64,000 nt of DNA from Gemmatimonadota bacterium (GTDB taxonomy: Bacteria > Gemmatimonadota > Gemmatimonadetes > Gemmatimonadales > Gemmatimonadaceae), in NCBI GenBank assembly GCA_016194585.1, contig JACQBG010000027.1, forward strand, positions 1-64,000, in the 5' to 3' direction. The position numbers and the translations under genes were made by a program. The notes below the pieces were generated by a model. The model had not been told where the DNA came from and did no database searches. It worked only from the letters and a program-made list of their open reading frames with translations. This document shows positions 1,302 through 45,215 of this stretch, piece by piece; the stretch's first letter is position 1; the number at the start of each line of letters is the position of its first letter.

Positions 1302-2810
1302 CTAATTATGGCGAACGCGGCCGATGGCCGTCAGCATCGCCCGGGCCTTGTTCTCGGTCTCGTCCCACTCCGTGGCGGGCACGGAGTCGGCGACGATCCC
1401 GGCCCCGGCCTGCACGTTGGCCTCCCCGCCGGCGATCACGCAGGTGCGGATCGTGATCGCGAGGTCCATCCGGCGGTCGCCGTACGCGATGTAACCGACC
1501 GCGCCCGCGTAGGGCCCCCGCCGCTCGGGCTCGAGTTCGTCGATGATCTCCATCGCCCGCACCTTCGGCGCGCCCGTCATCGTCCCGGCCGGGAACGTCG
1601 CGCGGAACACGTCCATCGTCGAACGCCCGGGCGGCAGCTGTCCCTCGACCTGGCTCACGATGTGCAGCACGTGCGAGTACTTCTCCACCGTCATGAGGTC
1701 GGTGACGGACACCGTCCCATACTCGGCCACGCGGCCGACGTCGTTCCGGCCGAGGTCGACGAGCATCACGTGCTCCGCACGCTCCTTCTCGTCCGCGAGG
1801 AGCTCCGCCGCCATGCGCGCGTCCTGCTCGGCGTCGCGGCCGCGCGGCCGCGTCCCGGCGATCGGGCGCACGATCACGCGGTCGTCGGCGACGCGCACCT
1901 GCAGTTCGGGCGAGCTGCCGACGAGCTCCACGCCGTCGAGCGCGAGGTGGTACATGTACGGGCTCGGGTTCAGCGCCCGGATCGCGCGGTAGAGCGCCGT
2001 GCTGTCGAAATCGAACGGCACCACGATGCGGCGCGCCAGCAGGGCCTGGAAACAGTCCCCGGCGCGGATGTATTCCTTGATCCGCTCGACGTCGGCCATG
2101 AACTTCTCGCGGCTGTACGTCGAACGTCCCGTGGCCGGCGCGGCGGCCGGGTCGAGGTCGAGCGGCGGGAGCGCGGGGCCGTGCCGCAGCCGCTCGATCG
2201 TCGCGTCGATGCGCGCGTTCGCCGCGCGTTCGAGGGCCTGCGCCTCCACGTCGGTCGTCCCGTGCGGCACGCGCATCGGCGTCACGACGCGCGCCTGCGC
2301 CCGCAGGTTGTCGATGATCACCACCGTGCCCGTGAACACGAACAGCGCGTCGGGGGCCTTCACGCCACGCGGCGGCGCGTGCGGCAGGCGCTCGATATGG
2401 CGCACCGCGTCGTAGGCGAAATAGCCGACCGCGCCCCCCCAGAACGCCCCGAGTTCGGGTGTATCCACGGGCGCGAACGCGGTCAGTCGGTCGCGCAGGT
2501 CGGCGAACGGGTCGTCCACCGTATGCGCGCCGTGCCACCCTCGCGCCGAGTCCCATTCCTCCACCACGCCGTCGGTGAGCCGCCACGCGCCGAGCGCCTC
2601 GGCGCCGAGGAAGGTGAAGCGCGCCCACGTCTCGCTCCCCGCCGGCGCCGACTCGAGCAGGAACGCGAACGGCTGCGCGTCCGGGGCGAGCGCGCCACGC
2701 AACTTCGCGAACGCCCCGACGGCCGTCTCCGTGTCGAGCAGCACGTCGCGCCAGACGGGGATCAGCACGCCCGTTGCCCTGTCCGTTCCGCCCGATGAAC
2801 TTCCCTGCAT
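1302..2810 (-). CDS. trpE: Anthranilate synthase component I
   Basis: Converts chorismate plus ammonia or glutamine to anthranilate, the first step of tryptophan synthesis. The 502-residue length is normal. The N-terminal LLES motif (residues 51-54) is the tryptophan-feedback site of TrpE, and the catalytic half carries LVGSSPELQVRV, PIAGTRPRG, DLGRNDVGRV, FPAGTMTGAPKVRAME and PYAGAVGY. PIAGT rather than PIKGT, together with LLES, favours TrpE over PabB. I place the start at the ATG at 2810-2808 because conserved sequence begins shortly after it; the frame stays open to 2954, but the extension is low-complexity and reads through the oppositely oriented neighbour. The start codon shares bases with the divergent gene's ATG. 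No trpG or trpD is adjacent and no leader peptide or attenuator is visible. The FHA cyclase follows 3 bases downstream. Confidence 0.93.
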   Translation of the reverse strand: MQGSSSGGTDRATGVLIPVWRDVLLDTETAVGAFAKLRGALAPDAQPFAFLLESAPAGSETWARFTFLGAEALGAWRLTDGVVEEWDSARGWHGAHTVDDPFADLRDRLTAFAPVDTPELGAFWGGAVGYFAYDAVRHIERLPHAPPRGVKAPDALFVFTGTVVIIDNLRAQARVVTPMRVPHGTTDVEAQALERAANARIDATIERLRHGPALPPLDLDPAAAPATGRSTYSREKFMADVERIKEYIRAGDCFQALLARRIVVPFDFDSTALYRAIRALNPSPYMYHLALDGVELVGSSPELQVRVADDRVIVRPIAGTRPRGRDAEQDARMAAELLADEKERAEHVMLVDLGRNDVGRVAEYGTVSVTDLMTVEKYSHVLHIVSQVEGQLPPGRSTMDVFRATFPAGTMTGAPKVRAMEIIDELEPERRGPYAGAVGYIAYGDRRMDLAITIRTCVIAGGEANVQAGAGIVADSVPATEWDETENKARAMLTAIGRVRHN

Positions 2811-4872
2811 GCGTCCTCTGTGCGTGGCGTGTGTTGTTGCGTGTGCGGCGAGCCTGCTCCCCGGCACGGCGCGCGCGCAGGCCTGGAACGACCAGCGGAC
2901 CATGTCGCTCGTCGACCTCGCCATCGCCCGGCGGTCCGCCCAGCTCGCCGACACCGGCCTCTCGGACTACCACGCGACCGCGCATGGGTACCTCACCTTC
3001 CTCGCGCAGGTCGGCGCCGGCTATCCCGACCCGCCCAAGGTGGTGCGCACCGACGAACTCGCCGTCGAAGTCTATTGGCGCGCGCCGAACCAGAGCAAGC
3101 AGCGCATCGTCGGCCGCCGCGACACGCTGCTCCTCCCGACCGACATCGCCTACCATCGCGACCACCTCGCGATCGTGCAGAACAACTTCCCGGGCATCAT
3201 CCGGCTCGGCGACGGCGACGAGGTGCGCGACGTCCCCCATCCGCTCTCGGCAGCGGGGCGCGAGGCGTACGACTACGCCGTCGCCGACTCCCTCAGCATC
3301 CGCACCGTCGACCGCCGCTGGGACGTGATGATGGTGCAGGTGCGCCCCAAGGACGACCGCCTGCCGCGCGCCGTCGGCGCCGTCTACCTCGACCGCGCCA
3401 CCGGCTCCGTCGTGCGGATGACGTTCAGCTTCACGCGCGCCGCCCTCAAGGACCCGCAACTCGAGGATGTCTCGATCATCCTCGAGAGCGGCCTCGTCGA
3501 CGGCCGCTTCTGGCTCCCGCGCCGCCAGGAGATCGAGATCCGTCGCACCGCCACGTGGATGGACTTCCCGATGCGCGGCATCATCCGCGGGCGCTGGGAC
3601 ATCTGCTGCGTGACGGTCAACCAGCGGTTGCCGGCGCAGTGGTTCGCCGGGCCCGAGATCGTGGCCGCGCCCCCCGCGCAACTCAAGGCGTACCAGTTCC
3701 CGGGCACCATCCTCCAGAGCCTCCCCGGCGACGTCACCCTCGGCGAGAACGACGACGTCCTCAAGGTGCAGGAGCAGGCGCGCGAGCTCGTGCGCGCCGG
3801 CGCGCTCGCCCGCGCACGGCTCACCGTGCCGAGCGCGCGCAGCGTGAGCGACCTCGTGCGCTTCGACCGCAACGAGGGGCTGGCGCTCGGCGGCGGCATC
3901 GCGCACCGGTTCGGCGACGGCCTCTTCGCCAAGGCCCGCGGCCGCTTCGGCACCGGCGACCACCAGTGGAAGCACGAACTGTCCGTCGGGTGGCAGCGCG
4001 CGAGCGGCGCCGGCGTGACGCTCACCGCGCGCGACGATTGGCGCGACGCCGGCGTCGAACCCGAGGCGAGCGGCCTCCGCAACAGCATCGTGGCACAGGA
4101 GTTCGGCAGCGACCTCACCGACAGCTATCGCGCGCGCGGCCTCTCGCTGGTCCTCGACGCGGGGACGGCCGGCGGATGGCGGTGGGCGCTGACGCTCGAC
4201 GCCGAACGGCAGGACGCGCTCGGCCTGCACGCGCGTCCGGCGAGCGGAACGTTCGCCCCCGCCTTCGCCGCCGACCCCGCGACCGTCCGGCGCGCGACGC
4301 TGCTCGCCACGCGCCCGGCCGCGCCCGGTCCGTTCGGTAGCACGGTGTCGGCGTCGGCGGCGTTCGGCGTCGAGGGCGCGACGTTCGAGGCGGGCCCGAG
4401 CTCCGGCGCCAGCACCACCTTCGGGCGCAGCGAGCTCGTCGCGAACGTCGAACGTCCGTTCGGTTCTGCCCGTCTCGTGCTGCACACCACGGCCGCGGCC
4501 GTCCTCGGCCCCGACGCGCCCCGGCAGGCGCTCGTCCGCTTCGGCGGACCGGTGACCGGTCCGGGCTACGACCTGCATCAGCTGTGGGGAACCGCCGGCG
4601 TGTCGCAGCGCGTCGAGTGGCAGCTCCCCGCCGGCGCGATCCCGCTCTCGCTCGGCCGCTTCGGCTCGCTCGCGATGCCCGTCACCGTGGCGCCGTATGC
4701 CCAGGCGATCTGGGTCGCGGGCGGTGGCGCGGGGAGCGCCGCCTACGGCTCGCTCGGCGTCGCCGTCCTCACGGTGTTCGACCTCGTCCGGCTCGACGTC
4801 GCGCGCGGCCTGCGGGGCGGCCGGTGGTCGTTCGGTTTCGACCTCACCAGGGACTACTGGCGAATCTTTTGA
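2809..4872 (+). CDS. Outer-membrane beta-barrel protein of unknown function
   Basis: A 687-residue exported protein I do not recognise as a named family. Residues 1-25 form a clear signal peptide (hydrophobic core, then GTARAQA), which fixes the start at the ATG at 2809. Residues about 30-290 form a mixed alpha/beta region with LolA-like character (strand-rich, YLDRATGSVVRM, WLPRRQEIEI), which is my inference from pattern only. From about residue 360 the sequence has alternating hydrophobic/polar strands typical of a transmembrane barrel, and the last residues (DYWRIF) end in Phe, the usual outer-membrane insertion signal. The gene is divergent from trpE and alone in its orientation until the ATPase at 4978. 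Its -10/-35 region must lie inside trpE. Substrate unknown. Confidence 0.8.
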   Translation: MRPLCVACVVACAASLLPGTARAQAWNDQRTMSLVDLAIARRSAQLADTGLSDYHATAHGYLTFLAQVGAGYPDPPKVVRTDELAVEVYWRAPNQSKQRIVGRRDTLLLPTDIAYHRDHLAIVQNNFPGIIRLGDGDEVRDVPHPLSAAGREAYDYAVADSLSIRTVDRRWDVMMVQVRPKDDRLPRAVGAVYLDRATGSVVRMTFSFTRAALKDPQLEDVSIILESGLVDGRFWLPRRQEIEIRRTATWMDFPMRGIIRGRWDICCVTVNQRLPAQWFAGPEIVAAPPAQLKAYQFPGTILQSLPGDVTLGENDDVLKVQEQARELVRAGALARARLTVPSARSVSDLVRFDRNEGLALGGGIAHRFGDGLFAKARGRFGTGDHQWKHELSVGWQRASGAGVTLTARDDWRDAGVEPEASGLRNSIVAQEFGSDLTDSYRARGLSLVLDAGTAGGWRWALTLDAERQDALGLHARPASGTFAPAFAADPATVRRATLLATRPAAPGPFGSTVSASAAFGVEGATFEAGPSSGASTTFGRSELVANVERPFGSARLVLHTTAAAVLGPDAPRQALVRFGGPVTGPGYDLHQLWGTAGVSQRVEWQLPAGAIPLSLGRFGSLAMPVTVAPYAQAIWVAGGGAGSAAYGSLGVAVLTVFDLVRLDVARGLRGGRWSFGFDLTRDYWRIF

Positions 4873-4885
4873 CACTCGCAAGCCC

Positions 4886-4914
4886 CTGACCAGCCGCCGG
4901 ACTGGCGTTAACAT
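4886..4914 (+). promoter_or_regulatory. Candidate sigma70-type promoter for the ATPase-REC gene
   Basis: A CTGACC -35-like hexamer (4886-4891), a 17-base spacer and TAACAT (4909-4914) lie 64 bases ahead of the ATG at 4978. A GGCGCGCC/GGCGCGCC hairpin (4930-4955) sits in the leader. This is inferred from consensus matching only. Confidence 0.35.
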
Positions 4915-4977
4915 TAGACGTTAGGCCACGGCGCGCCGGGAGGGTGTGGCGCGCCGCCACGCTCGAGACGAGGATCG

Positions 4978-7062
4978 ATGGGCACGTCCGCACGCGCTGC
5001 ACGAGACGAATGGCTGCTGCCGACGCTCGAGGGTCTCGTGACCCCCGAGCAGTTCGCGGCGTTGAAATCGGCGCGTGAGGACAGCGTGTGGGAGACGGCG
5101 GTCCGCCGCGGCTTCACCTCCGACGACCAGATCCTCACCGCGCTCGCCTCGCGGTTCCGGATGAAGATCGCGAACATCAACATGATCTCGCAGCAGGCGC
5201 GCGAGCTCGTGCCCGAGCAGCTCGTCCGCAAGTACCGCGTGCTGCCGCTGCAGATCAGCGACTCCGTCCTCGACATCGCGACCGCCGATCCCCACGACCT
5301 CGACTGCGAGCGCACCCTCGCGTTCGCGCTCGGCCGGACGATCCGCATGTCGCTCGCCTCGCCGACGAAGATCCTCGAGCGGCTCGACGAGGTGTACCGC
5401 CCGGAGAACGTGATCGAGAAGATCCTCGAGAACGTCGCCGGCGACTACGACATCGAGACGCTCAGCGAGCAGATCGAGGATTCCGACCTCGAGCTCGGCG
5501 CCAACCGGGCGAGCGAACGGCCGGTCATCCAGCTCGTCGACCGCATCGTCGCCGAGGGGATCCAGTCGCGCGCGTCGGACATCCACCTCGAGCCCGAGGA
5601 AGCCGGCGTCGCGGTGCGCTACCGCATCGACGGCGTGCTCCGCCAGGTCATGATCCTGCCGAAGGCGGCCGGCATCCCGCTCGTGTCGCGCGTCAAGATC
5701 ATGGCGCAACTCGACATCGCCGACCGGCTGCGTCCGCAGGACGGCCGGTCGCGCGTCGTCGTGAGCGGCAACCGCGTCGACCTGCGCGTCTCGACCCTCC
5801 CCGCGTCGCAGGGCGAGAAGGTCGTCATCCGTATCCTCGACCAGCGCGCGACGGTACTGTCGCTCGACGGACTCGGACTCAACCCCGACGAGCTCGAGCG
5901 CATCCACGGCCTGCTGCAGGCGCGCGAGGGCGTCGTCCTCGTCACCGGCCCGACGGGCAGCGGCAAGACGACGACGCTGTACTCGATGCTCCGCACCATC
6001 CAGGCCCGCGGCGACGCGGCGAGCTCGGTCACGCGTCTCCTCGACATCGGCGTCGAGAGCTACAAGATCGCCGCGTCGCTCAAGGGCGTCGTCGCGCAGC
6101 GCCTGCTGCGCCGGCTCTGCGTGCATTGCCGCGAGCTCGCCGTGGGGCAGGTGCCCGATCGCCTGCGCAAGTGGTTCCCCGATGGCTCGACGCTCTACCG
6201 TCCCGTGGGGTGCAGCGAGTGCTCGCAGACGGGTTATCGCGGCCGCCTCGCGATCACGGAAGTCCTCACAGGGAGTCCCGAACTCGAGCGGCGCGTCGCC
6301 GCGAACGAGTCGTCGGAGCGCATCGCCGACGCGGCGCGCGAGGGTGGGATGCGCGGGCTGTGGGAGTCCGGCGTGCAGCACGCGCGCAACGGCACGACGA
6401 GCCTCGAGGAGCTGCTGCGCGTGCTCGAGGCGCCGGCGGAACCCACCGCGCCGCACAAGCCCGCCGCGCCGACGACCCGCAACACGGCGTCGGTGATGCC
6501 GGGCGAGTCAGCGGCGCCACCGGCGCCCATCGTCACCGACACGGCCGCGCCGACCATAGAAGCCGACCTCCTCCCACCGCCGCCGAAGGGGCGCGTCTCG
6601 ACGCTCCACGCCACGCCGCCCGCGAGCTTCACCGGCGACTCGTTCCAGCTCGTCGACGAGGAACACGCCAACGTCGGCGAGTCGAAGAAGGTGCTCCTCG
6701 TCGAGGACGAGGACGCGTTGCGCCGCGTCGTGAAGGACCTCCTCGAACGCGAAGGGTTCACCGTGTTCGAAGCCGCCGACGGCGTGAAGGCGCTCGACGA
6801 GATCGACCGCGCCGCGCCCGACATCGTCGTGCTCGACCTCAACCTGCCGCGGCTCGACGGCTACGGCGTGCTGAGCCACCTCCGCGCCCGGCCGAGCACG
6901 GCGAACCTCCCCGTCATCGTCCTCACCGCGAAGGGCGACGAGGACAGCGAGGTGCGCGTGTTCGAGTACGGCGCGAGCGACTATCTCACCAAGCCGTTCC
7001 GCCCGCGCGCCCTCTCGGCGCGCCTGCATTCGCTCCTCGCCCGCGGCCACAACGCCACCTGA
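4978..7062 (+). CDS. PilB/GspE-like ATPase fused to a receiver domain; ATPase core deleted
   Basis: Family of type IV pilus/type II secretion motor ATPases, here 694 residues. Residues about 10-150 resemble the GspE N-terminal (MshEN-like) domain. The ATPase half has SDIHLEP, RYRIDGVLR, RLRPQDGRS and Walker A GPTGSGKT (324-331). After TIQARG (to 345) the chain jumps to DAASSVTRLLDIGVE, which in relatives lies just after the His box. The Asp box, Walker B and His box, about 75 residues, are therefore absent with the frame kept. Downstream elements are present: AQRLLRRLC, two CxxC pairs for zinc, and GYRGRLAITEVL. A Pro/Ala linker (about 480-565) leads to a C-terminal REC domain with phospho-acceptor D620 and the conserved TAK and KPF. 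The missing segment should abolish ATP hydrolysis; it may be a real adaptation, a mutation or an assembly collapse. The prepilin peptidase gene at 47.7 kb could serve the same machine. Confidence 0.85.
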   Translation: MGTSARAARDEWLLPTLEGLVTPEQFAALKSAREDSVWETAVRRGFTSDDQILTALASRFRMKIANINMISQQARELVPEQLVRKYRVLPLQISDSVLDIATADPHDLDCERTLAFALGRTIRMSLASPTKILERLDEVYRPENVIEKILENVAGDYDIETLSEQIEDSDLELGANRASERPVIQLVDRIVAEGIQSRASDIHLEPEEAGVAVRYRIDGVLRQVMILPKAAGIPLVSRVKIMAQLDIADRLRPQDGRSRVVVSGNRVDLRVSTLPASQGEKVVIRILDQRATVLSLDGLGLNPDELERIHGLLQAREGVVLVTGPTGSGKTTTLYSMLRTIQARGDAASSVTRLLDIGVESYKIAASLKGVVAQRLLRRLCVHCRELAVGQVPDRLRKWFPDGSTLYRPVGCSECSQTGYRGRLAITEVLTGSPELERRVAANESSERIADAAREGGMRGLWESGVQHARNGTTSLEELLRVLEAPAEPTAPHKPAAPTTRNTASVMPGESAAPPAPIVTDTAAPTIEADLLPPPPKGRVSTLHATPPASFTGDSFQLVDEEHANVGESKKVLLVEDEDALRRVVKDLLEREGFTVFEAADGVKALDEIDRAAPDIVVLDLNLPRLDGYGVLSHLRARPSTANLPVIVLTAKGDEDSEVRVFEYGASDYLTKPFRPRALSARLHSLLARGHNAT

Positions 7063-43935: not shown

Positions 43936-44174
43936 CTGAACCCACCCAGCTCCGCGTCTTCGTCAACGGCAAGGCGCTCTTCGTCCCGCACGGCGCGACG
44001 GCGCTCGACGCCGTGCGCCAGCTCGACCCCGCGCTCGCCGACGCCATCGCCGCCGGCGAGCGCGCCGTCACCGACAGCCGCGGCCTCCCCGTGCCGCCCT
44101 CGAGCGCGGCTACGGGCGGCGCCGTGTATCGCGTCGTCTCGGCGCGCGCCCTCCGCGACCAGGACCCGTCGTGA
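43932..44174 (+). CDS. Small beta-grasp-like protein of unknown function
   Basis: 80 residues, flanked by 4-base overlaps (ATGA with the nucleotidase, GTGA with ADA). No named family recognised. The pattern LRVFVNGKALFVPHGATALD, then a helix (AVRQLDPALADAIAAGER), then VTDSRGLPVP and YRVVSAR resembles ThiS/MoaD-type ubiquitin-like or ferredoxin-type beta-grasp folds, but it lacks the C-terminal Gly-Gly of a sulfur carrier. No cysteines are present. Its constant place in the operon suggests a role with ADA or the nucleotidase. The fold call is inference. Confidence 0.7.
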   Translation: MTEPTQLRVFVNGKALFVPHGATALDAVRQLDPALADAIAAGERAVTDSRGLPVPPSSAATGGAVYRVVSARALRDQDPS

Positions 44175-45215
44175 CGGAGTTGCCCAAGGAGTTGCTCCGC
44201 CGCATCCCGAAGGCCGAACTGCACTGCCACCTCGACGGCTCGGTGCGTCCCTCGACGTTGCTCGAGCTCGCCGAGGAGTACGGCATCCCGATGCCGGCGC
44301 TCACCCCCCGAGGAGCTCGCGCACCACATGTACGTGCGCGATGCCCGCCACCTCGAGGATTATCTCACCCGCTTCGACACCACGCTCAGTGTCATGCAGA
44401 GCGTCGCGTCGCTCGAGCGCATCACGTACGAGCTCGCCGAGGACGCGGCCGCCGATGGCGTGCGCTACATCGAGGTGCGCTACGCGCCGGTGCTCAACCA
44501 ACAGTGGGGGATGACGCTCGACGAGGCCGTCGACGCGCCCGCCCGCGGGCTCGAGCGCGCGTTCAAGGACCACGGCATCACGGGCCGCCTCATCATCTGC
44601 GCGCTCCGGCACCTGCCGCCGAGCGTCTCGCTCGAACTCGCGCGCCTCGCGGTGAGCTGGCAGGGGCGTGGCGTCGTCGGCTTCGACCTCGCCGGCGGCG
44701 AGGCCGGGCATCCGGCCGCGGTACATCAGTCGGCGTTCCATCACGCGCTCGACCACGGGATGTTCTGCACCTGCCATGCCGGCGAGGGCGCGGGGGCCGA
44801 GAGCGTGCGCGAGGCCGTGCACGTCTGCGGCGCGACGCGCATCGGACACGGCACGCGCCTCATCGAGGACGAGCGGCTCACCGACGAGCTCGGCGAACGC
44901 GGCATCGTCATCGAGGCCTGCCTCACGAGCAACGTGCAGACGCGCGCCGCGAAGGACTTCGCGTCGCATCCGCTGCGCGCCTTCTTCGACCGCGGCATGA
45001 AGGTCACCCTCAACACCGACAACCGGCTCATGAGCGGCGTGACCCTCACCGACGAGTACGCGCACGCCGCCCGCGAGTTGCACTTCACCTTCGACGAACT
45101 GTGCCGCCTCTCGCGCACGGGCTTCGAGGGGGCCTTCCTGCCCGACGACGAGAAGCGCGCTCTCCTCGAGCGCGTCGACCGCGAGTTCGCCTCACTCCGT
45201 CAGGAGCTCGGATGA
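44171..45215 (+). pseudogene. add: Adenosine deaminase, interrupted by a +1 frameshift
   Basis: Deaminates adenosine to inosine when intact. The GTG at 44171 starts LPKELLRRIPKAELHCHLDGS (zinc ligands H18, H20) and reads normally to PALTP. A run of six C (44304-44309) holds one C too many; dropping it joins EELAHHMYVRDARHLEDYL and the rest of a normal enzyme (YIEVRYAPVLNQQ, CHAGEGAGAESV, RIGHGTRLIED, CLTSNVQT, NTDNRLMS) to the TGA at 45215. Every catalytic element after the shift is conserved and the coding is clean, so a sequencing slip or a very recent mutation is likeliest. An unshifted product would stop being ADA after about 45 residues. The stop overlaps the pnp start. Confidence 0.85.

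Follow-up and report, generated by a model that had tools for sequence, protein, structure and literature searches.

The window, i.e., the whole stretch of 64,000 nucleotides analysed here, carries a gene for a protein with the domain order MshEN-T2SSE-REC (GspE/PilB-REC), from which an internal part of the ATPase is missing (Table 1). The reading frame is unbroken although the Pfam match to T2SSE is split in two, and in an intact orthologue the same profile is matched in a single piece (positions 2-370). The open frames of same-genus orthologues comprise 755-826 aa, compared to 694 aa in the window, and outside the gap the protein is 63-87% identical to 13 orthologues. The zinc-site-type cysteines C381, C384, C412 and C415, i.e., the tetra-cysteine motif of the PilB/GspE clade, are all present and invariant in the alignment. 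The gene is located between a gene for a 765-aa protein and a Nudix gene, and the same order is found in G006, G001 and G016. It is the orthologue of ordinary full-length ATPase-REC genes, with which it shares the syntenic slot, and no separate paralogue.

The protein encoded upstream (2575-4872, forward strand) is 68% identical in G006 and matched no Pfam family at an E-value of 0.001. An AT-rich motif like CGTTAGTATTA is present 5' of the start codon of the ATPase gene (CGTTAACATTAG in the window, at about 4903-4928) and also upstream of the gene at the related loci L013, L016, L017, L018 and L020; this motif is possibly a promoter.

Table 1. Features of the MshEN-T2SSE-REC gene in the window
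Feature	Position	Strand	Basis
MshEN-T2SSE-REC (GspE/PilB-REC) gene with internal deletion	4978..7062	+	Open reading frame, 694 aa
MshEN-type N-terminal domain, residues 70-143	5185..5406	+	Pfam PF05157, E 4e-15; AlphaFold2 block with pLDDT ~76-91
T2SSE ATPase, first part including the P-loop, residues 178-345	5509..6012	+	Pfam PF00437, profile 3-169
Walker A GPTGSGKT, residues 324-331	5947..5970	+	Sequence; invariant in the alignment
Deletion join G345/D346, 228 bp of the orthologues gone	6012..6013	+	Orthologue comparison
C-terminal remainder of T2SSE, residues 346-484	6013..6429	+	Pfam PF00437, profile 247-370
REC domain, residues 572-683, acceptor Asp D620	6691..7026	+	Pfam PF00072, E 1e-29; D620 invariant

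The missing segment

Base-by-base comparison with five near orthologues showed that exactly 76 codons are absent, and the two sides abut directly at the join. In the orthologue L010 the segment reads VNIVTVEDPVEY...ILVGEIRD...TTLHTI. It comprises the Asp box, an atypical Walker B motif (ILVGEIRD in the orthologues) that includes the catalytic glutamate, and the TLHTI of the His box (TLHT); the DAASS following immediately is retained in the window protein. In PilB, the Asp box, the Walker B/Glu and the His box serve Mg2+ coordination, catalysis of hydrolysis and contact to the gamma-phosphate, and catalysis in PilT-like ATPases requires these motifs (PMC5424180). The Walker B motif of the PilT type is atypical in that a glycine replaces the usual acidic residue and the catalytic glutamate comes next (PMC5424180).

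A preliminary description of this DNA had stated that Walker A is kept and that the Asp box, Walker B and His box are lacking, which is borne out by the sequence, by the split Pfam match and by the orthologue alignment, as is the statement that the loss is precise and in frame. Its size of about 75 residues was nearly right, being one short of the actual number. The passage across the gap within three residues and a His box reading TLHTND have to be corrected, the latter since the His box of the orthologues is TLHTID in most of the genus; the wording "Walker B Asp-Glu" was loose for a motif of the PilT type. Moreover, the join had been called GC-rich and repetitive. The GC content is indeed about 0.72; however, the DNA of the nearest relative has no direct repeats of at least 10 nt placed with one copy at each deletion end. 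The microhomology at the join amounts to at most 2 nt as judged from the DNA of relatives, from which the intact sequence of this species may differ. Repeat-mediated deletion or repeat collapse was therefore rejected.

Distribution of the gap and fate of the gene in related genomes

To survey relatives, 47 loci around related genes of same-genus, same-family and same-order genomes were translated; as some of these are one gene taken from two collections, they represent fewer distinct genes. A P-loop ORF was found in 46 of them, L075 being a fragment without P-loop. The segment is present in all 45 related loci that are readable through the whole region, and in L021 the contig end cuts inside the segment after VGEIR. 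Moreover, 288 genomes of the order were screened with a 69-residue query that bridges the join. It was matched over its full length in the genome of the window (G000, 135.7 bits), compared to 79 bits in the best other genome, essentially for the right-hand side only. Among the 288 genomes no independent genome has the same gap: only this assembly carries it, and a separate family of pilus ATPases without Walker B is not supported.

The preliminary description had also suggested looking for a second complete pilB. Such a gene exists in the window genome, on contig C7, where it adjoins a PilT-like gene, and complete cores are likewise found in a T2SSE ATPase (C31) and in a second MshEN-T2SSE-REC protein (C45). 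The latter is encoded at L003 (G000:C45, 1087-3183, reverse strand) and is about 40% identical to the window protein before the gap.

In sister genomes the same gene is eroded independently and repeatedly. In G003, a same-genus genome of 2.4 Mb, a 67-codon in-frame remnant lies between the same flanking genes, consisting of the first ~55 and the last ~12 codons joined (L164, G003:C6, from about 3713). In G016 (L033, G016:C7) and G014 (L162/L170) this slot holds an ATPase whose core is complete and whose receiver is truncated, with the same ending in both genomes; in G014 the gene lies in two contig pieces. The gene of G010 starts normally and then runs off the contig, and in G012 a search for the two flanking genes, at the thresholds used, found neither. 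The independent erosion suggests that the receiver-bearing ATPase is dispensable in this genus.

Age and origin of the deletion

No relaxed selection is visible in the rest of the protein. The window protein shows a single change at the 246 columns in which 22 relatives are invariant, and intact near relatives show 0 to 4 changes at the same columns; dN/dS of the retained parts is within the range of intact pairs. This indicates that the gene worked until very recently. The terminal branch measures about 0.3-0.45 synonymous changes per site, and a protein free of constraint along the whole branch would be expected to have acquired about 170-250 changes in these columns, compared to the one observed. 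Any unconstrained period can thereby have covered no more than about 2-3% of this branch, a rough figure which assumes that the loss removed all constraint. The deletion is thus at most of strain-level age, or it is absent from the organism.

The following weights are judgements and not computed values. We lean towards a private in-frame deletion of 228 bp that arose recently, at strain level, in an ordinary GspE/PilB-type ATPase-REC gene and created a loss-of-function allele. The deletion would then be present in living cells. It would abolish Mg2+ coordination by the Asp box, remove Walker B together with the catalytic glutamate, and take away the contacts that the His box makes to the gamma-phosphate and between subunits; as these motifs are removed, no ATP hydrolysis is expected, and the product, as far as can be predicted from its sequence, should neither hydrolyse ATP nor drive a pilus or secretion motor. 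Such a deletion would be tolerated because the gene is dispensable in the genus and because further complete motors, including the second ATPase-REC, are encoded in the genome. The age limit counts against a real event, which would be a lucky catch.

A serious, if less probable, explanation is that the gene of the organism is complete and that 228 bp were lost from the contig, e.g., where a poorly covered stretch was assembled from a read that was chimeric or had an internal deletion. The preliminary description had named an artefact as one option. This is compatible with the data, as relatives carry the missing bases; however, their presence in relatives alone does not separate an artefact from a real, recent and private deletion, and the repetitive join given as a reason was not borne out. 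An artefact would fit with the lack of decay elsewhere in the gene and with a deletion known from one assembly only; the kept frame would then be a one-in-three accident. Errors in the same contig are also hinted at by a frameshift in a conserved gene for an adenosine-deaminase-like protein, presumably add judging from the similarity to the relatives' ORFs (44171-45215, forward strand), in which a run of six C near 44304-44309 is one base longer than in G006. The extra C may reflect either a sequencing error or a genuine mutation; the assembly may thus hold errors. Against it stands that the deletion ends lack direct repeats that an assembler would collapse, making a plain repeat collapse unlikely. 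Moreover, no stray contig or other copy of the missing segment is found elsewhere in the assembly, the best other match (73%) being a paralogue. Finally, a survey of the residues aligned with G006 (about 48,000) and with G015 (fewer) turned up a single clear homopolymer frameshift and no further clean deletion comparable to this one. Shadow ORFs also align and make the survey noisy; the comparison with G006 argues against a generally indel-rich assembly.

We regard it as improbable that the shortened protein is a maintained regulator that binds nucleotide via Walker A and joins or poisons the hexamers of the motor, with receiver phosphorylation as its switch. The deletion is in frame, Walker A, the zinc-site-type cysteines and the receiver aspartate are all kept, and the remaining parts are free of decay, as such a role would have it. 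However, the gap occurs in no other of the 288 genomes, and the gene is orthologous, in the same slot, to full-length ATPase-REC genes, so that the non-hydrolysing regulated paralogue proposed in the preliminary description is not supported. Moreover, the cut takes out the central part of the RecA-like core that surrounds the P-loop, and the ATPase half would hardly fold normally. Even more doubtful is that the shortened protein is expressed and serves, in one lineage, as a receiver-controlled, ATP-binding, non-hydrolysing brake or decoy subunit of the motor. In AlphaFold2 models from a 14-sequence alignment, the N-terminal domain and the receiver of the window protein were confident and its ATPase core was poor; as the core of the intact orthologue was equally poor, with the same two domains confident, the models were dropped as a folding test of the deletion. 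A maintained non-hydrolysing subunit, if true, would be a new way of regulating pilus motors; nothing found here supports it.

Relation to known ATPases

The closest counterparts of the window protein are full-length MshEN-T2SSE-REC proteins from Gemmatimonadota MAGs of the same genus and order (e.g., L060, CANIWQ010000032.1), which share the domain order and the start, are as much as about 90% identical before the gap and, where checked, have the same neighbours (765-aa protein, Nudix). Unlike the window protein, they retain the 76 residues with the Asp box, the Walker B/Glu and the His box. PilB/GspE assembly ATPases of known structure (e.g., PDB 5tsg, 5zfr, 4pht) resemble the window protein in the N-terminal/N2 part, Walker A and the C-terminal cysteine part, but their chains have a complete catalytic core and no receiver-domain match. 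In the literature searched, nothing directly on PilB/GspE-receiver fusions was found.

Automatic annotation could list the gene as a functional GspE/PilB or as a novel variant of the ATPase, whereas the window protein belongs to an ordinary family, of which it is a broken or misassembled copy, and is not a new kind of motor. The remnant in G003 shares with it the slot and an in-frame internal deletion, but this deletion is far larger and leaves no recognisable domain. As a by-product, the analysis revealed that a receiver-bearing pilus/secretion ATPase is widespread in the order and repeatedly eroded in one genus.
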